Assembly (NCBI GenBank): GCA_015067825.1
Contig: SVLQ01000004.1
Coordinates: forward strand, 62,001 to 126,000
Reading direction: 5' to 3'
Source of the DNA: Oscillospiraceae bacterium
GTDB lineage: Bacteria > Bacillota > Clostridia > Oscillospirales > QAMX01
Length of the DNA stretch: 64,000 nucleotides
Shown here: piece after piece, positions 17,177-32,098 of the stretch
Numbering within the stretch: position 1 is the first letter of the stretch
Layout of the letters: each line of letters opens with the position of its first letter
The notes under the pieces: model-generated
What the model was told of the DNA's origin: nothing
The model's input: the letters and a program-made list of their open reading frames with translations, nothing else
Database searches by the model: none
Program-made: the position numbers and the translations under genes

Positions 17177-17205
17177 TTGAAAAACAGGGAAAAATATACT
17201 ATAAT
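17177..17205 (+). promoter_or_regulatory. Promoter of the 2-oxoacid dehydrogenase/rhamnose operon
   Basis: TTGAAA (17177-17182), exactly 17 bases, then TATAAT (17200-17205). It is the only strong promoter noticed ahead of the 14.6-kb plus-strand gene run. Confidence 0.85.
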
Positions 17206-17336: not shown

Positions 17337-18593
17337 ATGGCAAACATTGTTCTGATGCCGCAGCTGGGCATCTCGGAAGAATCCGCGGTCCTGTCGCAGT
17401 GGCGCGTCGCCGAAGGCGATGTGGTGAAGGCCGGTCAGATCCTGTTTACGCTGGAAACGGGCAAATCGTCGTTTGATGTGGAAAGCGAATTCGACGGTAC
17501 CGTTCTGAAACTTTTGTGCGATGAGGGCGACGAACTGCCCATCAAAGCACCGATCTGCGTGATCGGCGAACCCGGCGAAACCGTCGACGTTCCCGGCGCT
17601 GCCGCCGCTCCTGCTGCCGCGGAAGAAGCCGCTCCGGCCGTCGAGGAAAAAGTCGCCGCTCCGATCGCTGCTCCGGTGGCCACCGTTGCCGCCGACGATA
17701 AGCTCCATATCTCGCCGCGTGCGAGAAATCTCGCCGAAAAGACCGGCGCGGATCTCTCTGCCGTGACCGCGACCGGCCCCGAAGGCCGCATTATCGAACG
17801 CGACGTCGTCCGTGCGCTCAACGAAGGCAAGATCGGCAAGGCTGCTCCGGCCGTCGCCGAAGAAAAACCGGCCGCTCCGGCGCCTGCTGCCGAAACCAAG
17901 GCTGCCTACACCGTCGAACCGCTCACGCGCGTCCGCAAGGTCATTGCCGACAATATGCACCGCTCGCTCTCCGAAATGGCGCAGCTCACGCTCACCACTT
18001 CGTTCGATGCCACCGCGCTGCTCGATTTCCGCAAGGCGGCCAAGAGCGGCAAGATCGCCGGCCTCGAAGGCGTGACCTACAACGACATGATCCTCTTTGC
18101 CGTCTCGCGCACGCTGCTCGACTTCCCGTACTTCAACGCCCACTTCACCGGCGATGAATTCCACCTCTACAACACCGTCAATCTCGGCTTCGCCTGCGAT
18201 ACCGATAAAGGCCTGATGGTCCCGGTCATCAAGAACGCCGAAACGCTTTCGCTCAAGGCCCTTTCCGAACGCGCCAAGACGCTCGCGAAGTCGGCGCAGA
18301 GCGGCTCGATCGCCCCGGCCGATATGCAGGAAGGCACCTTTACCGTCTCCAACCTCGGCTCGCTCGGCATCGAAAGCTTTACCCCGGTCATCAACCCGCC
18401 GCAGACGGGCATTCTCGGCGTCAATACGCTGGAAACGCGCGTCCGCCTCGAAAACGGCAACCCCGTTTACTACACGGCGATGGGCCTCTCGCTCACGTTC
18501 GACCACCGCGCGGTCGACGGTGCTCCGGCCGCCCGCTTCCTCGCGGCGCTGAGAGCCAACCTTGAAAACTTCACGCTGCTGCTTGCAAAATAA
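17337..18593 (+). CDS. 2-oxoacid dehydrogenase E2 (dihydrolipoyl acyltransferase)
   Basis: Core acyltransferase of a pyruvate/branched-chain/acetoin dehydrogenase-type complex, 418 residues. One lipoyl domain (1-80) carries the lipoyl lysine in FTLETGKSSFDVES (Lys43). An Ala/Pro/Glu linker follows, then a peripheral-subunit-binding domain (about 124-162, ISPRARNLAEKTGADL), a second Ala/Pro linker, and the catalytic domain (about 190-418) ending in the active-site motif DHRAVDG (His390, Asp394). AAAGGAGAAGAT precedes the ATG. First gene of the operon, before E3 and fused E1. Substrate cannot be read from sequence. Confidence 0.93.
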   Translation: MANIVLMPQLGISEESAVLSQWRVAEGDVVKAGQILFTLETGKSSFDVESEFDGTVLKLLCDEGDELPIKAPICVIGEPGETVDVPGAAAAPAAAEEAAPAVEEKVAAPIAAPVATVAADDKLHISPRARNLAEKTGADLSAVTATGPEGRIIERDVVRALNEGKIGKAAPAVAEEKPAAPAPAAETKAAYTVEPLTRVRKVIADNMHRSLSEMAQLTLTTSFDATALLDFRKAAKSGKIAGLEGVTYNDMILFAVSRTLLDFPYFNAHFTGDEFHLYNTVNLGFACDTDKGLMVPVIKNAETLSLKALSERAKTLAKSAQSGSIAPADMQEGTFTVSNLGSLGIESFTPVINPPQTGILGVNTLETRVRLENGNPVYYTAMGLSLTFDHRAVDGAPAARFLAALRANLENFTLLLAK

Positions 18594-18618
18594 TTCTTAG
18601 GAAAACTGGTGAATCGTT

Positions 18619-19977
18619 ATGTATGATCTGATGATCCTCGGCGGCGGCCCCGCCGGTTACCGTGCCGCGGAAGTTGCGGCGGCCAACGGCATGAAAACCT
18701 TGGTCATTGAAAAACGCGCTTTGGGCGGTGTCTGCCTCAACGAAGGCTGCATTCCCTCCAAAACGCTTCTGCACTCGGCGAAGATCTACGACTACGCCAA
18801 GGGTGGCGGCGAAAAGTACGGTGTTTACGCCGAAAACGCCCGCCTCGACCACGCGTACGTCATCAAGAGAAAGGACAAGGTCGTCAAAACGCTCGTGCAG
18901 GGCATTGCCTATACGCTGAAAAACCACAAGGCCGACGTCGTTTACGCCGAAGCCAAGATCACCGGCCGCAGCGCCGAAGGCTTTACGGTCGAAGCCGAAG
19001 GCAAGACCTACGAAGGCAAAAAGCTGCTGATCGCCACCGGTTCGGAAGCACTGCTGCCGCCGATCAACGGCCTGCACGACGCTTATAAGGCCGGCTACGC
19101 GCTGACCAACCGCGAGATCCTCTCGCTCGAAAAAGTGCCCGCCTCGCTCTGCATCATCGGCGGCGGCGTCATCGGTCTGGAAATGGCCTCGTATTTCTGC
19201 TCGGCGGGCAGCAAAGTCACCGTCGTGGAAATGATGAACAAGATCGCCGGCCCCACCGACTCCGAGATCTCCGCGCTGCTGCTCGACCACTACAAGGCCA
19301 AGGGCGTGACCTTCCACCTCGGCGCGAAGGTTACCGCGCTGACCGACGGCTCGGTCACCTTTGAAAAAGACGGCGAGACCGTTACGATCGAGACCGAAAA
19401 GGCGCTCGTTTCCATCGGCCGCCGCGCAGTCACCAAAGAGATCGGCCTTGAGTCGATCGGCGTTCTGACCGAACGCGGTGCGGTCGTGACCGACGAACAG
19501 ATGAAGACCAACGTTCCCGGCGTGTTCGCCGCGGGCGACGTCAACGGCAAGTCGATGCTGGCGCACACGGCCTACCGCGAAGCGGAAGTCGCCGTCAACG
19601 TGATGCTCGGCAAAAAAGACCGCATGGACTACTCCGCAGTTCCGGCCGTCATCTACACCAATCCCGAATCCGCATCCGTCGGCGAAACCGAAGAAACCGC
19701 CAAAGCCAAGGGCTACGACGTTGAAGTCAAGAAGCTCTCGATGAACTACAGCGGCCGTTACCTCGCCGAAAACGAAGGCGGCAAGGGCATCTGCAAGGTC
19801 GTCTACGAAAAGGGCACCGAACGTCTGCTGGGCGTGGCGATGCTCGGCAATCCCGCCAGCGAGATCATCGTCGCCGCGACGGAAATGATCGCCCGCGAAG
19901 ACCGCATGGTCGATCTGCAGAAGGTCATCTTCCCGCACCCGACGGTGGGCGAAGTGCTCAGAGAAACCGCGTTTTAA
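18619..19977 (+). CDS. lpdA: Dihydrolipoyl dehydrogenase (E3)
   Basis: 452-residue flavoprotein disulfide reductase that reoxidises the lipoyl groups of E2 with NAD+. FAD motif LGGGPAGYRAAEVAA at residues 7-21, redox-active disulfide GGVCLNEGCIPSKTLL (Cys39, Cys44), NAD motif IIGGGVIGLEMASYF, and the C-terminal HPTVGEVLRE containing the catalytic His-Glu pair. No fused lipoyl domain. It starts 25 bases after the E2 stop and precedes E1. Confidence 0.95.
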   Translation: MYDLMILGGGPAGYRAAEVAAANGMKTLVIEKRALGGVCLNEGCIPSKTLLHSAKIYDYAKGGGEKYGVYAENARLDHAYVIKRKDKVVKTLVQGIAYTLKNHKADVVYAEAKITGRSAEGFTVEAEGKTYEGKKLLIATGSEALLPPINGLHDAYKAGYALTNREILSLEKVPASLCIIGGGVIGLEMASYFCSAGSKVTVVEMMNKIAGPTDSEISALLLDHYKAKGVTFHLGAKVTALTDGSVTFEKDGETVTIETEKALVSIGRRAVTKEIGLESIGVLTERGAVVTDEQMKTNVPGVFAAGDVNGKSMLAHTAYREAEVAVNVMLGKKDRMDYSAVPAVIYTNPESASVGETEETAKAKGYDVEVKKLSMNYSGRYLAENEGGKGICKVVYEKGTERLLGVAMLGNPASEIIVAATEMIAREDRMVDLQKVIFPHPTVGEVLRETAF

Positions 19978-20030
19978 GTTGTAAACCGTAAGTTTTCACG
20001 AACCATATCTATAAAAACATCACAGGAGGA

Positions 20031-22508
20031 TTGTTTTTTATGCCGAAGAGCCAATTTGTCGATCCTGCAAAAATGCGGGAGCCCGGAGTTCTTACCTTTA
20101 AGGATATTCCGATCAACGCTTATTCCAAGACCTTCGAACAGGAACGTGCGAATTTTTCCGACAACGACCTGATCGGGATCTTCAAGGACATGCAGTACAT
20201 CCGTGAATTCGAGACGATGCTGTTCTCCGTCCGTACCACCAAGCAGTACAACGACGTCGAATACGTCTACACCGGCCCGGCCCACCTCTATACCGGTCAG
20301 GAAGCCGGCGCTGTCGGTATGGCCTACAGCCTGACGATGGACGACTACATCTTTGGTAACCACAGAAGCCACGGCGAAGTGCTCGCCAAGGGTCTGGCTG
20401 CCATCAAGAATCTCGACGACGACAAGCTCTACGAGATCATGAAGAACTTTGCCGGCGGCAAGATCCTCTCCGTCGCCGAAGCCAACAACACCAGCGGCAA
20501 CATCAAAGACCTCGCCGTCGACTTCCTGCTCTACGGCTTCATGGCCGAACTCTTCGGCCGCGAAAACGGCTTTACGATGGGCCTTGGCAACTCGATGCAC
20601 GTCTTCTTCACGCCGTTTGGCATCTACCCGAACAACGCCATCGTCGGCGGCTCGGCCGGTGTCTCGGTCGGTGCGGGTCTCTACAAGCGCGTCAACAACA
20701 AGCCCGGCATCGTCGTCTGCAACATCGGTGACGGTTCGCTCGGCTGCGGCCCGGTCTGGGAAGCGATGAACTTTGCCGCGCAGGATCAGTTCACCCAGCT
20801 GTGGGACGAAGCCCACAAGGGCGGCCTGCCGATCATCTTCAACTTCTTCAACAACCACTACGGCATGGGCGGTCAGACCCGCGGCGAAACGATGGCCTAC
20901 GATATCCTCGCCCGCGTCGGCGCCGGTATCTCGCCCACCCAGCTGCACTCCGAACGCGTCGACGGCTACAACCCGCTGGCCGTTATCGATGCCTTCCGCC
21001 GCAAGAGAGAGATCATCGAACGCCGCGAAGGCCCGGTCCTTCTCGATACCGTTACCTACCGCTACGTCGGCCACTCCGCGACCGACTCCTCGAGCTACCG
21101 TACGCCCGAAGAAATCGAAGCCTGGCGCGCCCACGATTCGATCGCTGCGTTCAAGGAACAGCTCCAGAAGAACGAAATCGCCGACGCCGATCTGTGCGCC
21201 AACCTCGAAGAGGGCATCAAGGAACGCATTACGCGCATCATGAAGCTCGCCATCGACGATTCGATCTCCCCGCGTATCAACCTCGCCGCCAACCCCGACG
21301 GCATCCGCAACCTCATCTTCTCCAACGAACGCAAGGAAAAGATGTCGGACGAGAAGCCCGAAACTCTCACCGCTTACGCCGACAACAGCCGTGTTAAGAA
21401 GCTCGCCGACAAGATCCGCTGCGGTATCGACAAGGACGGCAAGCCGGTCTCCAAGCTTAAGACGCTCTCGATCCGCGATGCTCTGTTTGAAGCGATCTTC
21501 TCCAAATTCTATGAAGATCCGACTCTCATCGCCTTCGGCGAAGACAACCGCGACTGGGGCGGCGCGTTCGGCGTCTACACCGGTATGACCGAATCGCTCC
21601 CGTATCACCGCTTCTTCAATGCGCCGATTTCCGAAGGCACGATCGTCGCCGCTTCCGTTGGCTATGGTCTCTGCGGCGGCCGCGCGATCCCCGAGCTCAT
21701 GTACTGCGACTTCCTCGGCCGCGCCGGCGACGAAGTCTTCAACCAGCTCGCCAAGTGGCAGGCGATGAGCGCCGGCATCCTCAAGATGCCCGTCGTGCTC
21801 CGCGTTTCCTGCGGCTCCAAGTACGGCGCGCAGCATGCGCAGGACTGGACGAGCCTGACGACCCATATCCCGGGCCTCAAGGTCTGCTTCCCGGTCACCC
21901 CGTACGATGCCAAGGGTATGATGAACGCCGCCCTCGCCGGCACCGACCCGGTCATCTTCTTCGAAAGCCAGAAGCTCTACGACATGGGCGAAATGTTCCG
22001 CGACGAAGTTCCGGAAGGCTATTACGAAATCCCGCTGGGCGAACCGGACGTCAAGCGCGTCGGTAAGGACATCACGATCCTCAGCGTCGGCGCCTCGCTG
22101 TACGCTGCGGTCGAAGCCGCCAAGCAGCTCCAGGAAAAATACGGCCTCGAAGCCGAAATCATCGATGCCCGCAGCCTTGTCCCGTTCAACTACGAACCGG
22201 TCGTCGAATCCGTCAAGAAGACGGGCCGCATCATTCTCGTGTCCGACGCCTGCGAACGCGGCTCGCACCTGAACGATATGGCGCGCAACATCACCGAATT
22301 CGCTTTCGATTACCTCGATGCGCCGCCGGTCGTCGTCGGTGCCCCGAACGTGATCTCTCCGTGCCCGGAACTCGAAAGCTACTACTATCCGCAGGCCGCG
22401 TGGATCCTCGACGCGATCAACGAAAAGATCCTGCCGCTGCCCGGCCACACCGGCGTCAACAACTTCACCACGCTGGAGAAGATCCGCCGCGAAAAGCTCG
22501 GTATCTAA
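20031..22508 (+). CDS. 2-oxoacid dehydrogenase E1, alpha and beta fused
   Basis: 825-residue thiamine-diphosphate dehydrogenase in which the alpha (about 1-400) and beta (about 475-825) subunits are one chain. The ThDP motif starts at GDGSLGCG (230-237) and ends at NNHYGMGG (271-278). The beta part begins with TLSIRDALFEAIFSKF and contains FGEDNRDWGGAFGVYTGM. It would decarboxylate a 2-oxoacid and load the acyl group on E2. Fused E1s are known, but the partner genes here are rhamnose enzymes. Pyruvate, a branched-chain oxoacid, acetoin or an unknown oxoacid are all possible. Confidence 0.92.
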   Translation: MFFMPKSQFVDPAKMREPGVLTFKDIPINAYSKTFEQERANFSDNDLIGIFKDMQYIREFETMLFSVRTTKQYNDVEYVYTGPAHLYTGQEAGAVGMAYSLTMDDYIFGNHRSHGEVLAKGLAAIKNLDDDKLYEIMKNFAGGKILSVAEANNTSGNIKDLAVDFLLYGFMAELFGRENGFTMGLGNSMHVFFTPFGIYPNNAIVGGSAGVSVGAGLYKRVNNKPGIVVCNIGDGSLGCGPVWEAMNFAAQDQFTQLWDEAHKGGLPIIFNFFNNHYGMGGQTRGETMAYDILARVGAGISPTQLHSERVDGYNPLAVIDAFRRKREIIERREGPVLLDTVTYRYVGHSATDSSSYRTPEEIEAWRAHDSIAAFKEQLQKNEIADADLCANLEEGIKERITRIMKLAIDDSISPRINLAANPDGIRNLIFSNERKEKMSDEKPETLTAYADNSRVKKLADKIRCGIDKDGKPVSKLKTLSIRDALFEAIFSKFYEDPTLIAFGEDNRDWGGAFGVYTGMTESLPYHRFFNAPISEGTIVAASVGYGLCGGRAIPELMYCDFLGRAGDEVFNQLAKWQAMSAGILKMPVVLRVSCGSKYGAQHAQDWTSLTTHIPGLKVCFPVTPYDAKGMMNAALAGTDPVIFFESQKLYDMGEMFRDEVPEGYYEIPLGEPDVKRVGKDITILSVGASLYAAVEAAKQLQEKYGLEAEIIDARSLVPFNYEPVVESVKKTGRIILVSDACERGSHLNDMARNITEFAFDYLDAPPVVVGAPNVISPCPELESYYYPQAAWILDAINEKILPLPGHTGVNNFTTLEKIRREKLGI

Positions 22509-22545
22509 ACGCGATACCGAAAAAAACGGAAAGGAACTACAAATT

Positions 22546-23808
22546 ATGCAGACAACTGCTGTCCGCCTTTACGGTAAAGACGACCTGCGCCTGGAGACCT
22601 TTGAGCTCCCGGCGCTCGGCGACAACGAGATCCTTGCGCGTGTCATCTCCGACTCGATCTGTATGTCGAGCTTCAAAGCGGCCGAACAGGGTGCCGACCA
22701 CAAACGCGTGCCCAACGACTGCGCCGAAAACCCGGTCATGATCGGCCACGAATTCTGTGGCGAACTGGTCGCTGTCGGCAAAAACTGGCAGCACAAATAC
22801 AAAGCCGGCGACAAATTCTCGATCCAGCCGGCCATCAACCACAACGGTTCTCTCGCCGCACCCGGTTACTCCTACCAGTATATCGGCGGCGACGCCACTT
22901 ACATCATCATCCCCAACGAAGTCATGGAGCACGACTGCCTGCTGCCGTACCATGCCGATGCCTATTTTTACGGCTCGCTGGCCGAACCGATGAGCTGTGT
23001 CATCGGTGCCTTCCATGCCAACTACCACACGAAACAGGGCAGCTACGTCCATGAAATGGGCATCCGCGAAGGTGGCTGCATGGCGCTGCTCGCGTCCGCC
23101 GGCCCGATGGGTATGGGTGCGATCGACTATATCATCCACTGTGACCGCCGTCCGCGTCTGCTGGTCGTCACCGATATCGACGATGCGCGCCTGACCCGCG
23201 TTGCCTCGCTGATCACGGTCGAAGAAGCCGCGAAAAACGGTGTCGAGCTGCACTACGTCAATACCTCGTCCGGCGCGGAAGCGGAAGCTGCGATCATGGC
23301 GCTTACCGACGGCAAGGGCTACGACGACGTTTTCTGCTTTGCTCCGGTGCGTCCGGTCGTCGAGATGTCCGACCGCCTGCTCGGCCACGACGGCTGCCTG
23401 AACTTCTTTGCCGGCCCGATGGACAAGAAGTTTGCCGCCGAGCTGAACTTCTACAACGTCCACTATGCCGCGACCCATATCGTCGGCACCTCCGGCGGCA
23501 ACACCGACGATATGCTCGAGGCGCTTTCAATGATGGAAAAGGGTCTGGTCAATCCGGCTGCGATGGTCACCCATATCGGCGGCCTCGACGCCGTCGTCGA
23601 TACGACGCTCCGTCTGCCCAAGATCCCGGGCGGCAAAAAGCTGATCTATACGCATATTTCGATGCCGCTGACTGCGATCGCGGATTTCGCCAAGCTGGGC
23701 GAGACCGATCCGCTGTTTGCCAAGCTCGCCGAGATCTGTGACAGAAATAACGGCCTCTGGAGCACGGAAGCCGAGCAGTATCTGCTTTCCGTAAAGGCGG
23801 TGGACTGA
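22546..23808 (+). CDS. Zinc-type dehydrogenase similar to L-sorbose-1-phosphate reductase (SorE)
   Basis: 420-residue medium-chain dehydrogenase. Catalytic zinc ligands appear as Cys in DSICMSSFKAAEQG and His-Glu in VMIGHEFCGELVAVG. A Rossmann region (LLASAGPMGMGAIDY) binds NAD(P). The overall layout, with a short loop without the four-Cys structural zinc site and the EPMSCVIGAFHANYH segment, resembles SorE, which reduces L-sorbose 1-phosphate to glucitol 6-phosphate. It lies between fused E1 and the aldolase/SDR fusion, whose SDR half resembles glucitol-6-phosphate dehydrogenase. Actual substrate unknown. Confidence 0.75.
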   Translation: MQTTAVRLYGKDDLRLETFELPALGDNEILARVISDSICMSSFKAAEQGADHKRVPNDCAENPVMIGHEFCGELVAVGKNWQHKYKAGDKFSIQPAINHNGSLAAPGYSYQYIGGDATYIIIPNEVMEHDCLLPYHADAYFYGSLAEPMSCVIGAFHANYHTKQGSYVHEMGIREGGCMALLASAGPMGMGAIDYIIHCDRRPRLLVVTDIDDARLTRVASLITVEEAAKNGVELHYVNTSSGAEAEAAIMALTDGKGYDDVFCFAPVRPVVEMSDRLLGHDGCLNFFAGPMDKKFAAELNFYNVHYAATHIVGTSGGNTDDMLEALSMMEKGLVNPAAMVTHIGGLDAVVDTTLRLPKIPGGKKLIYTHISMPLTAIADFAKLGETDPLFAKLAEICDRNNGLWSTEAEQYLLSVKAVD

Positions 23809-23809
23809 T

Positions 23810-25762
23810 ATGCCGCTGACCGATATCATCGCGCTGTCTAATTTCTACGGCTCCGATCCCGACTACGTGCTCGCCGGCGGCGGCAATACGTCGGTCAAAG
23901 AGCAGGGCGTTCTCTACGTCAAAGCCAGCGGTACGCGCCTCGGCGACATCACCGCGGAAGGCTTTGTCGCGCTCAGCATGGAAAAACTGACTGCGATCAC
24001 CGAAAAAACGTATTCCGACGACGAGAAAACGGCGGAAGCCGAAGTTCTCGCCGATATGATGGCCTCGCGCCTGCCCGGCATGAGCGGCCGGCCGAGCGTG
24101 GAAGCGCTGCTGCACGCGCTCTTCCCGCAGAAGCTGGTCGTCCACCTGCACCCGGCCGCCGTCAACGGCGTGACCTGCGGTGCCGAGGGCATGGCCGCTG
24201 CCAAGCGCCTGTGGGGCGAAGACTGTGTCTGGCTCGATGAGATCAAGCCGGGCTACACGCTCGCGATGGGCGCAAAGGCCGCGATGGATGCCTACAAAGC
24301 CGCATCCGGCAAGGATGCCGATCTGCTCGTGATGCAGAACCACGGTATCTTCTTCGCCTCCGATACCAAAGACGAGATCACCGCGCTGATCGACCGTGCG
24401 ATGGCTGCGGTCAAGGCCGCTGCCGAAACGCCGGATACGGCCGACGCCGCGTTTGACGACGCCGACGTTGCCGCAATTGCGCCGGTCGTCCGCTCGCTGA
24501 CGGTCGTCGACGGCTACGCCTGCTTCTTTACGAATGCCGCGCTGAAAGCGCAGTCGGAGACGTGGGCGGGCACGACGCTGTGCGCGATGACCCCGGACCA
24601 TATCGTCTACATCGGCCACGCGTTCGTCTGTGTCGACCGTATCGAAGATCTTGAAGCGCAGTATGCCGCGATCGAAGCGGCGGTCAAGGCGTTCGTCGCC
24701 GAAAACGGATATGTGCCCAAGGTCGTCGTGATCAAAGGTCTCGGTGCGTTTGCCTGTGCGTCTTCCTGGAAGGATGCCCAGACGATCAAAGCGCTCTTCA
24801 ACGATTTCGTCAAGATCAACGCCTATGCCGCGAGCTTCGGCGGTGCCAAACTGATGGCCGATTCGATGATCGCGTTCATCCGCAACTGGGAAGTCGAGAG
24901 CTACCGCAAGAGTGTTTCGATGGCCGGTTCGGCTGCCAAGCGCATGGCGGGCAAGATCGCCATCATGACCGGCGGTGCGCAGGGCTTTGGCGCGGGTCTC
25001 GCGGAAGAACTCTGCAAAAACGGTGCTTCCGTCGTCATTGCCGACATCAATATGGCCGGTGCCGAGGCGTTTGCCAACACGCTGAACGAAAAGTTCGGCG
25101 CGGGTTCGGCTGCTGCGGCGGCGTGCGACGTCTCCAACGAAGAATCCGTCAAGGCGCTGATGGACAAGACCTGTGCGCACTTCGGCGGTCTGGACGTGTT
25201 CGTCTCCAACGCCGGTATCGTCCGTTCGGGCGGTCTGGAAGAGATGGATGCCAAAACCTTCGATCTGATGACGCGCGTCAATTACGTCGCCTTCTTCCAC
25301 TGCACGAAGTACGCTTCGCGCGTGATGAAGCTGGAAACGCGTTTTGCCCCGGGCAAGATCTGCGACGTGATCCAAATCAACTCCAAATCCGGCCTCACCG
25401 GTTCCAACAAGAACTTTGCCTACGCCGGTGCGAAATTCGGCGGCATCGGTCTGGTGCAGTCGTTTGCGCTGGAGCTCATTCCGTATAACATCAAAGTCAA
25501 CGCCATCTGCCCGGGCAACTTCCTCAACGGCCCGCTGTGGATGGACCCCGAACGCGGCCTTTTCGTGCAGTATCTGCGCGCGGGCAAGGTTCCGGGTGCG
25601 AAAACGGTCGAGGACGTCAAGCGCTTCTACGAAGCCAAGGTTCCGATGAACCGCGGCTGCGAGATCGAAGACGTCGTGACGGCGCTCTTCTATGCCATTG
25701 AACAGAAGTACGAAACCGGACAGGCGATCCCTGTCACGGGCGGACAGAATATGCTGAAATAA
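23810..25762 (+). CDS. Bifunctional class II aldolase / short-chain dehydrogenase (RhaEW-like)
   Basis: 650-residue fusion. The N-terminal class II aldolase (about 1-380) has the phosphate loop GGGNTSVKEQ, metal ligands in HLHPAAVNG, and a third His in QNHGIFFA. The C-terminal SDR (about 383-650) has TGGAQGFGAGLAEEL for NAD(P) and the catalytic YAGAK. Such fusions act as L-rhamnulose-1-phosphate aldolase plus lactaldehyde dehydrogenase. The SDR half, however, closely recalls glucitol-6-phosphate 2-dehydrogenase (QINSKSG, AKFGGIGL, GQAIPVTGGQNML). Neighbours rhaB and rhaA support rhamnose use. The ATG begins one base after the SorE-like stop. Confidence 0.85.
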   Translation: MPLTDIIALSNFYGSDPDYVLAGGGNTSVKEQGVLYVKASGTRLGDITAEGFVALSMEKLTAITEKTYSDDEKTAEAEVLADMMASRLPGMSGRPSVEALLHALFPQKLVVHLHPAAVNGVTCGAEGMAAAKRLWGEDCVWLDEIKPGYTLAMGAKAAMDAYKAASGKDADLLVMQNHGIFFASDTKDEITALIDRAMAAVKAAAETPDTADAAFDDADVAAIAPVVRSLTVVDGYACFFTNAALKAQSETWAGTTLCAMTPDHIVYIGHAFVCVDRIEDLEAQYAAIEAAVKAFVAENGYVPKVVVIKGLGAFACASSWKDAQTIKALFNDFVKINAYAASFGGAKLMADSMIAFIRNWEVESYRKSVSMAGSAAKRMAGKIAIMTGGAQGFGAGLAEELCKNGASVVIADINMAGAEAFANTLNEKFGAGSAAAAACDVSNEESVKALMDKTCAHFGGLDVFVSNAGIVRSGGLEEMDAKTFDLMTRVNYVAFFHCTKYASRVMKLETRFAPGKICDVIQINSKSGLTGSNKNFAYAGAKFGGIGLVQSFALELIPYNIKVNAICPGNFLNGPLWMDPERGLFVQYLRAGKVPGAKTVEDVKRFYEAKVPMNRGCEIEDVVTALFYAIEQKYETGQAIPVTGGQNMLK

Positions 25763-25772
25763 TTTTGGGCGC

Positions 25773-25875
25773 GCGGCGCGTACTCTATGTGCGCGCCGCA
25801 CGCCGACTTGTTTTTCTGCCGACGGCGGGAAAACGATCTTTGCGGAAGGCTTTTCCGCGGAAAGGCAGAAAATAA
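25773..25875 (+). other. Structured spacer inside the rhamnose operon
   Basis: The spacer before the PHP gene holds a GC-rich inverted repeat (GCGGCGCG with CGCGCCGC around 25782-25800) and a short palindrome TTTCCGCGGAAA near 25852. No T tract follows the first stem, so RNA processing or pausing is more likely than termination. Confidence 0.35.
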
Positions 25876-27159
25876 ATGACTCTCGAACAACTGACGATCC
25901 GTCTGAATCACCCCACGCTTGCGGTGCGTCTGAACGCGCTGAAAGAGCTTGTCGAAAAGGAAAAGGCAGGGGAGCTCGCTCCGGTCGAATGCCAGGGCGA
26001 CGTCAATAACCATATCCATACGTGGTATTCCTTCTCGCCGTATTCCCCGACCAAAGCCGCGTGGCTTGCCCACCGCGCCGGACTGGCGACGGCCGGCATC
26101 ATGGACCACGACAGCATCGCCGGTGCGGCCGAATTTCTGGCTGCCGGTGAGATCCTCGGTCTGGACGTCACCAGCGGTCTGGAACTGCGCGTGTCGTTTG
26201 CGGATACGCCGTTCGGCGATCGCCGCATCAATAACCCCGACCAGTCGGGTATTGCCTACATCGCGCTCCACGCCGTCCCCGAATGCGGCCGTGCGGTCAT
26301 CGCCGAATACCTTAAGGGTGTTTCGCTCGCGCGTGCCCGCCGCAACCGCAAAATGGTCGACAAGATCAACGCGCTGATCGCACCGCTGGAGATCAAAATG
26401 GAGTACGCCTGCGACGTTCTTCTCTACACCTCCAAAAAGGGTGCGGGCGGCAGCGTGACCGAACGCCATCTCCTTTACAGCCTTGCCGGCAAGCTCATCG
26501 ATAAATTCGGCAAGGGCGAAAAGCTCATTGACGCGCTGGAAAACCAGCTCGGCCTTAAAATTAGCGACAAAAACCGTGCTTGGCTCTCCGATACCAATAA
26601 TCCGGGCTATGCCTACGACGTGCTCGGCGTTTTGAAAGGCGAACTCGTCGCGAAGATCTACGTCGACGCCGATACCGACGAATGCCCCGACGTGCGCGAA
26701 GTCATCGCGCTGGCCAAAAAAGCCGGTGCGATCTGCGCCTATGCCTACCTCGGCGACGTCGGCAGCTCTGTCACCGGCGATAAGCGCCCGCAGAGTTTCG
26801 AGGATTCGTATCTCGACGACCTGATCCCGTACCTGAAAGACCTCGGCTTCAACGCCGTGACGTATATGCCCTCGCGCAACACTCCCGAACAGCTCACGCG
26901 TCTCAAGGCGCTCTGCGAAGCAAACGAACTCTTCCAGATCAGCGGCGAAGATATCAACTCTCCGCGCCAGAGCTTCGTCTGCCTTGCGGCCCGCGCGCCG
27001 GAATTTGCCAACCTGAAAACCGCGGCCTATGCCCTGATCGGCAGCGAAAAGGCGGCGAAGGACGATGCCGGCAAGAGCATGTTTGCCGACGCACAGGTCG
27101 CGGCCGAACCCTCGCTCAATGCTCGCACCGAGGCGTTCGCCGCACTCGCGCACAACTGA
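25876..27159 (+). CDS. PHP-domain phosphoesterase-like protein
   Basis: 427-residue protein with a polymerase-and-histidinol-phosphatase (PHP) domain. The metal-binding motifs NNHIHTWYSFSPYSP (HxH, about residues 41-43) and MDHDSIAGAAEF are clear, and GLELRVSF provides a further acidic ligand. The second half has no domain I recognise but ends with further PHP-like motifs (TYMPSRNTPEQL). PHP enzymes hydrolyse phosphate esters. In this operon, between the aldolase fusion and rhaB, it may remove a sugar-phosphate intermediate or overflow; that is inference. Confidence 0.8.
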   Translation: MTLEQLTIRLNHPTLAVRLNALKELVEKEKAGELAPVECQGDVNNHIHTWYSFSPYSPTKAAWLAHRAGLATAGIMDHDSIAGAAEFLAAGEILGLDVTSGLELRVSFADTPFGDRRINNPDQSGIAYIALHAVPECGRAVIAEYLKGVSLARARRNRKMVDKINALIAPLEIKMEYACDVLLYTSKKGAGGSVTERHLLYSLAGKLIDKFGKGEKLIDALENQLGLKISDKNRAWLSDTNNPGYAYDVLGVLKGELVAKIYVDADTDECPDVREVIALAKKAGAICAYAYLGDVGSSVTGDKRPQSFEDSYLDDLIPYLKDLGFNAVTYMPSRNTPEQLTRLKALCEANELFQISGEDINSPRQSFVCLAARAPEFANLKTAAYALIGSEKAAKDDAGKSMFADAQVAAEPSLNARTEAFAALAHN

Positions 27160-27195
27160 ACCGATCAAAAAACGACGAAAGGCGGTCTTGACCGA

Positions 27196-28671
27196 ATGAA
27201 CAAACGCTTCCTGACATTCGACTATGGCGCGTCGAGCGGACGCGGCATTCTCGCCGAATTCGACGGACAACAGCTCTCTGTCCGCGAGATCCACCGCTTT
27301 GTGAACGATCCGATCAATGCCTTCGGCCACTATTACTGGGATCTTCTGCGCCTGTTCCAGGAGATCAAAACGGGTCTGATCAAGCTCAAGCGCGAAGGTA
27401 TCACCGATATCGCGTCGATGGGCGTCGATACTTGGGGTGTCGATTTTGCGCTGCTCGACCAGTACGATAAGCCTCTGAGCAACCCGTTTTACTACCGCGA
27501 CAGTCTGACCGACGGCGCGATGGAGGCGGTTTACTCCATCATCCCCAAAAAAGAGATCTACGAACGCACGGGCATTCAGTTCATGAAGTTCAACACGATC
27601 TTCCAGCTCTACGCGCTCCGTCAGCGCTATCCCGCACTTCTCGATAACGCCAAGACCCTGCTTCTGATGCCCGACCTCTTAAACTTCATGCTCACGGGCG
27701 TGAAGTCGGCGGAATATTCGATGGCGTCGACGACGCAGCTCCTCGATGCCCGCACGCAGCAATGGGATCCGGAGATCCTTGAACGCCTTGATATCCCCAA
27801 GGATATCTTCCTGCCGGTCACCCAGCCCGGCCGCATCCTTGGCAATACGACCGACGAGGTCTTTGCCGAGACCGGTATGCGCGTTCCGGTCGCCTCCGTC
27901 TGCGGCCACGATACGGGCAGCGCGGTTCTGGCGATCCCGATGGAAAAAGGCGAACGTTGTGCCTATATTTCCTGCGGCACTTGGAGCCTGCTCGGTGTCG
28001 AACGCGACGCTCCGCAGACCGACGATGCCGCCTATGCGATCGAGTACACCAACGAAGGCGGCTTCGGCGGTACGATCCGTTTCCTCAAAAATATCATGGG
28101 TCTCTGGATCCACCAGGAAGTCAAGCGCGAACTCGAAAAAGAGTACGGCCCGATCAGCTACGCCGTCCTCGACGCCGAAACCGAAGCTGCTCCGGCGTTT
28201 GCCCGCTTCATCGACCCCGACGACGACGTGTTCTTCGACAAGGGCGGCATGATCGGCAAGATCCGCGACTACTGTATCGCCACCGGCCAGACTCCGCCGG
28301 AAACGCGCGGCGAGATCTTCCGCTGCGTGCTCGAGAGCCTTGCGTTCAAGTACCGCTATGCGGTCGAACAACTCGAATCCATGCTCGGCTACGACCTGCC
28401 GGTCATCCGCGTGGTCGGCGGCGGCTGCAAGGACATCATGCTGATGGCCTACACCGCGCGTGCCACCGGTCGCCGTGTGCTTGCCGGCCCGATTGAAGCG
28501 ACCGCCATCGGCAACATCTGTGCGCAGATGATCGCCACGGGTGTCGTCAAGGACGTTTGGGAAGCGCGTGAGATCGTCGCCCGTTCCTTCGAGATTAAGG
28601 ACTACACGGTCACCGAACGCGACGGTTGGGACGAACAGTACGGCCGTTTCCTCAAACTGATCAAAAAATAA
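27196..28671 (+). CDS. rhaB: Rhamnulokinase
   Basis: 491-residue FGGY-type kinase that phosphorylates L-rhamnulose to L-rhamnulose 1-phosphate. The N-terminal ATP-binding start LTFDYGASSGRGILAEF, the SMGVDTWGVDFALLD segment and the second-domain VCGHDTGSAVLAIP and VVGGGCKDIMLMAYTARATGR match RhaB well. Length is normal. The gene follows the PHP gene at 36 bases and precedes the Gfo/Idh gene at 15 bases. Confidence 0.95.
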   Translation: MNKRFLTFDYGASSGRGILAEFDGQQLSVREIHRFVNDPINAFGHYYWDLLRLFQEIKTGLIKLKREGITDIASMGVDTWGVDFALLDQYDKPLSNPFYYRDSLTDGAMEAVYSIIPKKEIYERTGIQFMKFNTIFQLYALRQRYPALLDNAKTLLLMPDLLNFMLTGVKSAEYSMASTTQLLDARTQQWDPEILERLDIPKDIFLPVTQPGRILGNTTDEVFAETGMRVPVASVCGHDTGSAVLAIPMEKGERCAYISCGTWSLLGVERDAPQTDDAAYAIEYTNEGGFGGTIRFLKNIMGLWIHQEVKRELEKEYGPISYAVLDAETEAAPAFARFIDPDDDVFFDKGGMIGKIRDYCIATGQTPPETRGEIFRCVLESLAFKYRYAVEQLESMLGYDLPVIRVVGGGCKDIMLMAYTARATGRRVLAGPIEATAIGNICAQMIATGVVKDVWEAREIVARSFEIKDYTVTERDGWDEQYGRFLKLIKK

Positions 28672-28686
28672 ACAGGGGATAAAGAT

Positions 28687-29754
28687 ATGGAACATAAACT
28701 TGGTTTTATTGGTTTCGGCGGCATGGCCGAACACCATTACAGAATGGGCAAACGCGAAGACATCGCGATGGAACCGGTCGCCGTGTTCGACATCCGTGCC
28801 GAACGCAGAGAACGTGCCGAAGAACTCGGCATGAAGGCCTACGATAACGTCGCCGATTTCCTCGCCGATAAGCGCTTCGACGTCGTTGTCGTCGCGACTC
28901 CCAACCAGTTCCACTGCCTCTATACCTGCAAGGCGCTGGAAGCCGGCTACAACGTCATCTGCGAAAAACCGGCGGCGATGAACACCGCCGAGGTCGAAAA
29001 GATGATCGCCACCGCCGAGCGCGTGGGCAAGATCTTTACGATCCACCAGAATCGCCGTTTCGACGAGGATTTCCGCGTGGCCAAGAAGGTATACGAAGCT
29101 GGTTACCTCGGCAAGCCGTATATGCTCGAATCGCGCATCGAAAGCCCCGACGGCAACGGCTGTATGTACAACTGGCGCGGTATGCTCGACCACGGCGGCG
29201 GCATGTTCCCCGACTGGGGCGTGCATATGCTCGACCAGCTCCTGTGGCTCATCGGCACACCGGTGCGCTCGGTCTATGCCAAAATCAGCACCATCCACTC
29301 CGAAGAAGTCGACGACTATTCCAAACTGCTGCTCACGTTTGACGACGGTCTGACCGCGCAGGTCGAAGTCGCGACCTTCGGTCCGGTCGCGCGCCCGCGC
29401 TTCAATTTCTACGGCACGCAGGGCGCGGCCGTTCTGGAAGAGATGGATTGGCCGGTGATGAAGGTGCGCCGTGTCTCCGCGTCCGAATATGAACCCAACG
29501 AATGCCCGGCATACCTCGAAAACGAGGTCACCACGCGCCATCAGCGCATCCATAAGGTCAAGCGCTTTGAGGAATTCTACGAAACCAGCAACGACACCGA
29601 ACACGGCTGGCATCACTACTACGAGCACTTTAAGAATACGCTCGACGGCAAAGAAGAACTGCTCGTCAAGCCCGAACAGGTGCTGCAGTGCATGCGCGTG
29701 ATCGATGCCGCGTTTGAATCCGCGCGCGAAAACAAGGTCGTTTATCTCGGCTAA
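28687..29754 (+). CDS. Gfo/Idh/MocA family oxidoreductase
   Basis: 355-residue NAD(P)-dependent sugar oxidoreductase. The N-terminal Rossmann motif LGFIGFGGMAEHHYRMG (residues 4-20) and the EKPAAMNTAEVEKMI segment with the conserved Lys are typical, and the C-terminal substrate domain carries GGGMFPDWGVHMLDQLLWL with the His seen in this family. These enzymes oxidise or epimerise sugars and inositols. It lies between rhaB and rhaA, so a rhamnose-derived or rhamnoside-derived substrate is plausible. Confidence 0.88.
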   Translation: MEHKLGFIGFGGMAEHHYRMGKREDIAMEPVAVFDIRAERRERAEELGMKAYDNVADFLADKRFDVVVVATPNQFHCLYTCKALEAGYNVICEKPAAMNTAEVEKMIATAERVGKIFTIHQNRRFDEDFRVAKKVYEAGYLGKPYMLESRIESPDGNGCMYNWRGMLDHGGGMFPDWGVHMLDQLLWLIGTPVRSVYAKISTIHSEEVDDYSKLLLTFDDGLTAQVEVATFGPVARPRFNFYGTQGAAVLEEMDWPVMKVRRVSASEYEPNECPAYLENEVTTRHQRIHKVKRFEEFYETSNDTEHGWHHYYEHFKNTLDGKEELLVKPEQVLQCMRVIDAAFESARENKVVYLG

Positions 29755-29779
29755 ACCGAATCAATAAAGGAGCTTTCAC

Positions 29780-31030
29780 ATGGATATGATGAAACAGTAC
29801 GAACTCGCCCGCGAACAGTTCGCGGCCTACGGCGTCGATACCGATGCCGCCATCGAAAAAGCACTGTCCGTTCCCGTGTCGCTGCACTGCTGGCAGGGCG
29901 ACGACGTCGTCGGCTTTGAAAATCCCGAGGGTGCGCTGACCGGCGGTATTCAGACCACCGGCAACTATCCCGGCAAAGCCCGTACCCCGGCCGAACTCCG
30001 CGCCGATATCGAAAAAGTTCTGTCGTTTGTCCCGGGCGAAACCAAGGTCTCGCTCCATGCGACCTACCTCGACGTCGATGCGCCGGTCTCCCGCGATCAG
30101 ATCGGCCCCGAACACTTCGCCCGTTGGGTCGAATGGGCCAAGGGCCAGAAGATCGGTCTCGACTTTAACGAAACCTTCTTCTCCCACCCGCTGTCCGGCG
30201 ACTTCTCCATCACCAATGCCGATCCGGGCATCCGCAAGTTCTGGATCGACCACGCCAAAAACTGCCGCAAGATCGCCGAAAGCTTCGGCAAAGAAACCGG
30301 CAAGACCTGTGTGACCAACTTCTGGATCCATGACGGCTGCAAGGAAGTTCCGGTCGACCGCTTTGCGCCGCGCGCCCGCCTGGTCGAAGCGCTCGACGAA
30401 GTGTTCGCCGAAAAGATCGATCCGAAGTACAACCGTGATACGCTCGAAAGCAAGCTCTTCGGCATCGGCAGCGAAAGCTACGTCGTCGGCAGCCACGAAT
30501 TCTACATGGGCTACTGCACCTCTCGTCAGATGATGGCCACGCTCGACACCGGCCACTTCCATCCGACGGAACTCGTCTCCAACAAGATCTCCGCGATGCT
30601 TCTCTTCCTGCCCGAACTGATGCTCCACGTTTCCCGTCCGGTCCGTTGGGACAGCGACCACGTGGTCGTGATGGACGACGAACTGATGGCGATCATGCAG
30701 GAGATCGTGCGCAACGGCATCGAAGACCGCGTGCACATTGGCCTCGACTACTTCGACGCCTCGATCAACCGTATCGCCGCCTGGACGGTCGGTGCCCGCA
30801 ACGCCCGCAAAGCGCTGCTTCGCGCCTACCTCGAACCGGTCGAACTGCTCAAGAAGTACGAAATCGACGGCGACAATACCTCCGTCCTCGCCATCACCGA
30901 AGAACTCAAGAGCCTGCCGTGGGGCATCGTCTGGGATTACCTCTGCGAGAAGACCGGCAAATACGCCGGCCGCACCTGGCTCGACGAAACCAAAAAGTAC
31001 GAAGCGGAAGTTACCTCCAAGAGAGCGTAA
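29780..31030 (+). CDS. rhaA: L-rhamnose isomerase
   Basis: 416-residue metal-dependent TIM-barrel isomerase converting L-rhamnose to L-rhamnulose, the first step of catabolism. The N-terminal [19 protein letters not shown] segment is a strong RhaA signature, and [37 protein letters not shown] and DTGHFHPTE supply barrel residues with metal-binding Glu/Asp/His. Length fits the family. Good AAAGGAG site. Confidence 0.95.
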
Positions 31031-31069
31031 GCCGCACCATATTCCGATCGAACGAAAGAAGGTACGACT

Positions 31070-31438
31070 ATGACTTACGGCAAAACCACGTGGCTCATCG
31101 GCGACGGTTACTGGGATTCCCACTCCAACGGCCTGTTTAACAGCCATGAATCGGTCTGTGTGCTCAATACCTCGGACAAAGATGCCACGATCACGATGAC
31201 GCTCTATTTCGAAGACCGCGATGAAATGGGCGGCTTCGTCGCCAAATGCGGCGCCAAACGCACCCACCACATCCGCATGGATAAACTCATCTCGCAGGAA
31301 GGCAAAGCCGTCCCGCAGGACGTTCCGTACGCGATTCTTGTCGAAAGCGACGTTCCGGTCGTCGTGCAGTACAGCCGCCTGATGTCGTCGCAGCCCGAAC
31401 TCGGTCTGATGTCGACGATCGCTTACCCGGTGGAATAA
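31070..31438 (+). CDS. Sensory rhodopsin transducer-like (ASRT-family) protein
   Basis: 122-residue soluble beta-sandwich protein of the family named after the Anabaena sensory rhodopsin transducer. Family features visible are WLIGDGYWDSHSNGLFNSHE at the start, a LYFEDRDEMGGF strand, THHIRMDKL, and VPVVVQYSRLMSSQPELGL near the end. No rhodopsin gene occurs in this window. ASRT relatives occur in sugar-metabolism neighbourhoods and are predicted to bind small molecules. Here it sits directly after rhaA and before a small membrane protein, which suggests a ligand-binding role linked to rhamnose. Confidence 0.85.
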   Translation: MTYGKTTWLIGDGYWDSHSNGLFNSHESVCVLNTSDKDATITMTLYFEDRDEMGGFVAKCGAKRTHHIRMDKLISQEGKAVPQDVPYAILVESDVPVVVQYSRLMSSQPELGLMSTIAYPVE

Positions 31439-31476
31439 GGCAAATGCGCATGTTCGTGCGAAAGGGGGCATGACGG

Positions 31477-32001
31477 TTGAATACGCATAATCTGGAAAAA
31501 CTCGACGTGTATAAGCACGGGTCGATCTGGTTCCGCATTTATATGTTCGGCTATCTCTACGGATTTCTGATCGCCTATTCGGTCGTTATGCTCGGTTTCC
31601 TCTCCAGTCAGGAGATGTGGCTCGATATCATCCATACGTGGTCGGGCAAAGAAGCGACCTACGCGGGCGTCCATTCGATCTGCTCGGTCATTCTGGTCGC
31701 TTCTGCCGTGATCAATGCGGCGTTGATGCCGATGGTCAACAAGTGGGCGTATATCGCAACGGTGACGCATCTTTTGGTGCTGCTGACTCACCGTCCGCTG
31801 ATCTTTGTGCTCACGAAGATCTTTGTCGGCCCGTTGCCCGAGTCCTTCGGCAGCTATACGAGCTTTCTTCTGCCGATCGCGGTTGTCTTCGTCGTGCCGA
31901 ACCTTTGGTATTTCTTCCGCCGCCGCGACCTCTTCACAAAGGATATTGTGAAGATCGTCACCGGGCAGGAAAAAGACGAGATCACCAGCGAATTCCGTTA
32001 A
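31477..32001 (+). CDS. Small multi-pass membrane protein of unknown function
   Basis: 174 residues with four predicted transmembrane segments: FRIYMFGYLYGFLIAYSVVM, VHSICSVILVASAVINAAL, YIATVTHLLVLLTH/LIFVLTKIFVG, and FLLPIAVVFVVPNLWYFF, then a charged C-terminus. The TTG start at 31477 follows AAAGGGGG at 31461-31468. Last gene of the rhamnose operon, immediately before its terminator. I recognise no family. It could be a partner of the preceding ASRT-like protein; it is too small for a known sugar permease. Confidence 0.7.
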   Translation: MNTHNLEKLDVYKHGSIWFRIYMFGYLYGFLIAYSVVMLGFLSSQEMWLDIIHTWSGKEATYAGVHSICSVILVASAVINAALMPMVNKWAYIATVTHLLVLLTHRPLIFVLTKIFVGPLPESFGSYTSFLLPIAVVFVVPNLWYFFRRRDLFTKDIVKIVTGQEKDEITSEFR

Positions 32002-32007
32002 CCATTC

Positions 32008-32056
32008 GATCCCGCTGTTTTTGCCGGCTTATCCGGCCAAAACAGCGGGATCGTTT
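32008..32056 (+). terminator. Terminator of the rhamnose operon
   Basis: A near-perfect 20-bp stem (32008-32027 with 32033-32052) and loop CTTAT, followed by GTTTTG. Confidence 0.9.
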
Positions 32057-32098
32057 TGTCGTGGTGCGGCATAGCATGGTGAGAGGGGAGATGATGCT

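Follow-up and report, generated by a model that had tools for sequence, protein, structure and literature searches.

What does a protein of the ASRT family, known from a sensory-rhodopsin system, do at the end of a rhamnose operon? The question is raised by two genes in the window, the whole 64,000-nucleotide stretch of DNA analysed here. An ASRT-family gene (31070..31438; + strand, like every feature below) follows the L-rhamnose isomerase gene rhaA and is itself followed by a gene for a membrane protein. What ASRT proteins do in organisms other than Anabaena has been an open question since 2009, when De Souza, Iyer and Aravind proposed, from gene context, a sugar-sensing role inside the cell for solo ASRT proteins and pointed out an isomerase-aldolase-kinase neighbourhood (PMC2739507). 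That idea is therefore already published; our analysis bears out the rhamnose link and adds the near-exclusion of one kind of ASRT protein with RhaM, the classical L-rhamnose mutarotase. With a discrete, pathway-tied subfamily whose occurrence complements that of a known enzyme, a vague "sugar sensor" becomes a testable enzyme question.

The end of a rhamnose operon

From 17337 to 32001 all genes share one orientation, and 1-113 bp separate each from the next. The run opens with the E2, E3 and fused E1 components of a 2-oxoacid dehydrogenase and a zinc-type dehydrogenase (17337..23808; PF00198, PF07992, PF00676+PF02779+PF02780 and PF00107; gaps of 1-53 bp in this upstream part). It continues with a RhaEW-like bifunctional aldolase/short-chain dehydrogenase (23810..25762; PF00596 + PF00106; TIGR02632 at 245 bits, below its cut-off), a PHP-domain protein (25876..27159; PF02811 at 22.2 bits, below the cut-off of 26.4), a rhaB-like rhamnulokinase (27196..28671; FGGY domains; TIGR02627 at 503 bits, just under the cut-off of 528), a Gfo/Idh/MocA oxidoreductase (28687..29754; PF01408/PF22725) and rhaA (29780-31030; PF06134 at 647 bits, TIGR01748 above cut-off), before the ASRT and membrane-protein genes. 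The PHP-domain protein is a conserved member, with orthologues 53-61% identical in rha operons of other genera. The Gfo/Idh/MocA gene does not adjoin rhaA in the relatives compared, and rhaB and rhaA are directly adjacent in loci L032-L034 and L039-L041.

A candidate promoter lies at 17177..17205 (TTGAAA-17-TATAAT, 11/12 to consensus, from a consensus scan only). Just past the stop codon of the membrane-protein gene begins a rho-independent terminator (32007..32057), a 20-pair hairpin with one internal mismatch followed by UUUUGU, at -37.2 kcal/mol and z -6.84 against shuffles. With a near-consensus promoter at one end and a strong U-tailed hairpin directly after the last stop at the other, the ASRT and membrane-protein genes close the operon, as an earlier note on this DNA had proposed.

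The placement of the 2-oxoacid dehydrogenase complex and zinc-type dehydrogenase upstream of RhaEW-PHP-RhaB-RhaA-ASRT (17337-25762 in the window) recurs in other genomes: G006, G013 and G018 have the same upstream order as far as their contigs show, and G009 has it from E1 on. These upstream genes suggest that lactaldehyde, or a product related to it, takes an unusual route.

The ASRT gene starts with ATG 39 bp past the rhaA stop and encodes 122 residues. The protein matches PF07100 at 145.8 bits (E 7e-43; cut-off 25 bits) over positions 2-119 of 119, thus full-length, and matches that family alone: PF05336, the RhaM family, is found neither in this protein nor anywhere in the genome. No rhodopsin is encoded among the genes of this operon, the scope of our check. 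The family assignment, the position directly after rhaA and, within the operon, the lack of a rhodopsin had all been read correctly in the earlier note. An AlphaFold model (pLDDT 91) is an eight-stranded beta-sandwich, as in 1nc7 and 2ii7. It matches TM1070 of Thermotoga maritima (1nc7) with Z 18.6 and rmsd 1.4 over 115 residues at 39% identity, and Anabaena ASRT with Z 14.7-15.2. The next folds after the ASRT structures score Z about 6 (best 6.4), and several of them are carbohydrate-binding modules. The SHExxC pocket motif and the conserved W8 and N33 of the ASRT-like group are all present. It is the histidine and cysteine of SHExxC that line the TM1070 pocket (PMC2739507), and H26 and C30 are the predicted equivalents here. 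The protein would be a small beta-sandwich of the cytoplasm and, as with TM1070, probably a tetramer, our model being of a single chain.

The last gene (31477..32001) lies 38 bp downstream of the ASRT gene, with a AAAGGGGG ribosome-binding site 8 bp upstream of its TTG start. Its 174-residue product has four membrane helices, at about 17-42, 62-86, 89-116 and 122-148, on which hydropathy and the AlphaFold model (mean pLDDT 82.6) agree. Pfam gave no match, the sole NCBIfam match was at chance level (E 0.11), five relatives had no consistent Pfam match, and a fold search returned generic four-helix bundles only (best Z 7.7), which is uninformative. The four-span protein of no recognised family described earlier is therefore real.

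Do these two proteins work together? The earlier note had suggested that they may form a sugar-sensing or transport-assisting pair. The genes are adjacent and co-oriented in G000, G004, G009 and G014, which represent three genera, and here they are likely on a single transcript. Relatives of the membrane protein, however, occur in only 6 of 21 genomes of the family. They stand beside the ASRT gene in 4 of the 12 family genomes with a rhamnose-type ASRT (the subfamily defined below) and are absent beside it in the other 8, whose ASRT gene also belongs to a rhamnose operon, and a profile search found none in the other 77 named ASRT loci. In G010 and G015, genomes that lack ASRT, the relative sits beside an ispE-like gene. 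Across the order, the profile gave four further marginal matches, all in frames broken by stops (one inside the family, three outside), and a scan of viral contigs found none. Where both genes are present, identity between genomes is 29-32% for the membrane protein, against 75-76% for ASRT. The survey of co-occurrence that the earlier note had called for thus largely went against the pair, and we rejected it as a conserved unit on its distribution and divergence. A functional partnership is very improbable, and the surviving part of the proposal is a rhamnose-linked, sugar-related role for ASRT itself, supported by its neighbourhoods, its co-occurrence with RhaA or RhaI and the match to TM1070. 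The membrane protein would then be a lineage-specific, weakly constrained neighbour, co-transcribed here and dispensable for ASRT function.

A rhamnose-type subfamily of ASRT

ASRT sequences of this class fall into two kinds. One carries S25, C30, T65, H67, P86 and S/T102; the other has G/A25, mostly I/M30, C67, Q86 and G102. Among 81 aligned proteins, 50 have all six of the first set, one has five and 30 have none or one. The bit-score split used to assign the subfamilies was chosen after seeing the data, and the residue signature yields the same split. The protein encoded here has the full rhamnose-type signature (S25 H26 E27 C30 C60 T65 H67 P86 S102).

We surveyed 293 Clostridia genomes, nearly all of them with a completeness of 90% or more. 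Rhamnose-type ASRT was present in 35, of which 28 also encode RhaA and 5 RhaI. In one of the remaining two the gene lies between rhaB and a RhaEW-like gene, and in the other it is at a contig end. A saccharolytic lifestyle could have produced such an association, and we rejected it as the cause with an arabinose isomerase control: rhamnose-type ASRT occurs in 28 of 84 genomes with RhaA and in 0 of 35 with arabinose isomerase but without rhamnose isomerase (RhaI having been searched in part of these).

The link also extends to ASRT genes encoded elsewhere. In a set of 80 named genomes, rhaA or rhaB is no more than 6 kb away from 23 of the ASRT genes; in 50 genomes where the gene is away from rha genes, RhaA is still encoded in 41 and RhaI in two more, so the association is more than co-location. 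Judged by residue signature and occurrence, rhamnose-type ASRT is a discrete branch of the family that appears to serve L-rhamnose breakdown. The signature by itself does not prove a rhamnose role, since in four Bacilli genomes that have both rhamnose-type ASRT and RhaM the ASRT gene sits in other sugar clusters. These clusters (L173, L178, L179 and L181) contain Gfo/Idh dehydrogenases, xylose-isomerase-like TIM barrels and sulfatases, and perhaps serve a sulfated sugar.

At a further set of loci (L100, L102, L105, L066, L067, L069, L071 and L101) rhamnose-type ASRT adjoins a DUF4364 gene (identified by profile in L102), and an obg-like gene often precedes it; those of these genomes that were classed also encode RhaA. 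The frequent DUF4364 neighbour could be taken to favour regulation of the rha operon by DNA binding. Such a role has been reported at the pec promoter for Anabaena ASRT, which loops DNA and affects a reporter (PMC8660804). The affinity reported there is weak, however (about 10 uM), and random sequence looped better (PMC8660804). Anabaena ASRT has three DNA-contact residues; in a comparison of 25 relatives, all have another residue in place of N113, and 20 in place of R109. As the key contact residues are not kept, we rejected a DNA-binding role, to which we would give hardly any weight.

Complementarity with RhaM

Is there an enzyme of the pathway whose place this subfamily could take? Location tests used 82 of the 84 RhaA genomes, two having fragments only. 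RhaM (PF05336) was found in 1 of 28 with rhamnose-type ASRT and in 7 of 12 with other-type ASRT, as compared with 19 of 42 with no ASRT (p 1e-4 and 0.52, respectively). Beside rhaA there was an ASRT gene in 16 cases, and RhaM lay within 5 kb of rhaA in 7; both were never found there together. Further Clostridia genomes with rhamnose-type ASRT had RhaM in 4 of 62, a set in which a few genomes are doubled under two handles and many are incomplete. Control genomes conformed: T. maritima has ASRT and RhaI without RhaM, and in E. coli, B. subtilis and a Bacteroides RhaA is accompanied by RhaM, with ASRT absent.

Exclusion persisted when counts were collapsed to genera (1/19/22/26, p 0.0014) and to families (2/14/13/11, p 0.0095). 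A tree-based independent-pairs test went in the expected direction (0 same, 2.6 opposite, 3.3 equal) and was underpowered; we rejected a lineage effect as the sole cause on the significant genus- and family-level counts. Across gut and rumen bacteria rhamnose-type ASRT thus appears mostly where RhaM is missing, which suggests, as far as gene content can tell, that it may do RhaM's job.

We therefore favour the reading that rhamnose-type ASRT stands in for RhaM as an L-rhamnose mutarotase, although we hold it tentatively, at a little under an even chance. L-rhamnose would bind in the predicted pocket lined by H26 and C30, near which C60, T65, H67, P86 and S102, the residues particular to the rhamnose type, would also lie. 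Putative acid-base groups at this pocket would speed interconversion of the alpha and beta anomers, and RhaA would thereby receive its usable form.

The principal alternative is the intracellular sensor, in which ASRT would bind rhamnose or rhamnulose and tune adjacently encoded enzymes or a transporter through protein contacts. It has behind it the family-wide proposal of 2009, made from gene context, the sandwich resembling carbohydrate-binding modules and the 1,2-ethanediol ligand in the TM1070 pocket (PMC2739507), and it is consistent with both the rhamnose-pathway dependence and the rhamnose-type signature. By itself, however, it predicts neither the near-exclusion with RhaM nor the absence of such exclusion for other-type ASRT. 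Nor does rhamnose-type ASRT have a constant partner beyond the pathway, as its neighbours vary from rhaA and rhaB through to obg/DUF4364. Near-exclusion is explained by non-homologous replacement of the mutarotase but not by a sensor, and for this reason we rank the sensor, a possible but rather unlikely account, below replacement.

The same pattern could be a matter of operon history: two historical rha gene sets, one with ASRT and one with RhaM, could have hitchhiked along with proteins of different jobs. This would fit the observations that ASRT and RhaM are never both near rhaA and that presence tracks lineages to some degree. Against it, ASRT is often far from rhaA in genomes that nonetheless encode RhaA (the 41 of 50 above). 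On the RhaA tree, moreover, there are about 13 changes in the presence of ASRT and about 15 in that of RhaM, so that neither gene is tied to a single lineage of RhaA. We regard hitchhiking as improbable.

Two points weigh on the mutarotase reading itself. Complementary occurrence is expected both of two proteins that catalyse one reaction and of two that meet one need in different ways, and it does not tell these apart. In addition, RhaM is missing from 23 of the 42 genomes that have RhaA but no ASRT of either type, indicating that mutarotase help is often dispensable. More broadly, and with a shade less assurance than for the replacement itself, rhamnose-type ASRT including TM1070 may constitute a second family of L-rhamnose mutarotases, unrelated to the first. 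The name "rhodopsin transducer" would then refer to a secondary use, in cyanobacteria, of an enzyme for sugar anomers, and the small molecules acted on by the other ASRT types would be different ones. If the mutarotase reading is true, TM1070 and hundreds of related Firmicutes genes need re-annotation, and light sensing in Anabaena would have metabolic origins.

Comparison with known systems

Other-type ASRT, which has a GHE motif, belongs to the same Pfam family but lacks all or nearly all of the rhamnose-type signature residues, shows no exclusion with RhaM and has M24 creatinase-like and creatininase-like genes as neighbours. At L082, L049, L074, L076, L079, L083, L087 and others it accompanies a gene for a protein of ~390 aa and, in many loci, one of ~244 aa; where checked, these neighbours were, at L082, an M24 creatinase-like peptidase and, at L049, a creatininase-like protein. 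Our literature search found no paper on this gene set. At one locus (L108, 5408-6251, in G127) other-type ASRT directly adjoins a PF05336 mutarotase-family gene.

Anabaena ASRT (2ii7) shares with the protein described here its family (94 bits), fold and SHExxC motif. It differs in being encoded with a rhodopsin, which this operon lacks, and in its DNA-contact residues, since the ASRT relatives compared have lost N113 and, for the most part, R109. RhaM/RhaU (PF05336), by contrast, is a separate protein family and absent from this genome; what it has in common with rhamnose-type ASRT is the proposed role in the same pathway and a complementary occurrence in Clostridia with RhaA.

TM1070 is alike in fold (Z 18.6, 39% identity), in the SHExxC motif and in the xHxR, P-Y and S-R positions, as well as in its rhamnose-isomerase/kinase/aldolase neighbourhood and in a genome without a PF05336 RhaM. 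It is unlike in that T. maritima has RhaI instead of RhaA, C60 is not conserved in TM1070, and no membrane protein of this kind is reported there. Among the papers searched, none connects TM1070 by name with rhamnose or with a mutarotase. The T. maritima operon, which rhamnose induces 27-37-fold, has been named rhaMADBC (PMC3750489); since the genome has no PF05336 protein, the rhaM of that name is, by elimination, probably TM1070.
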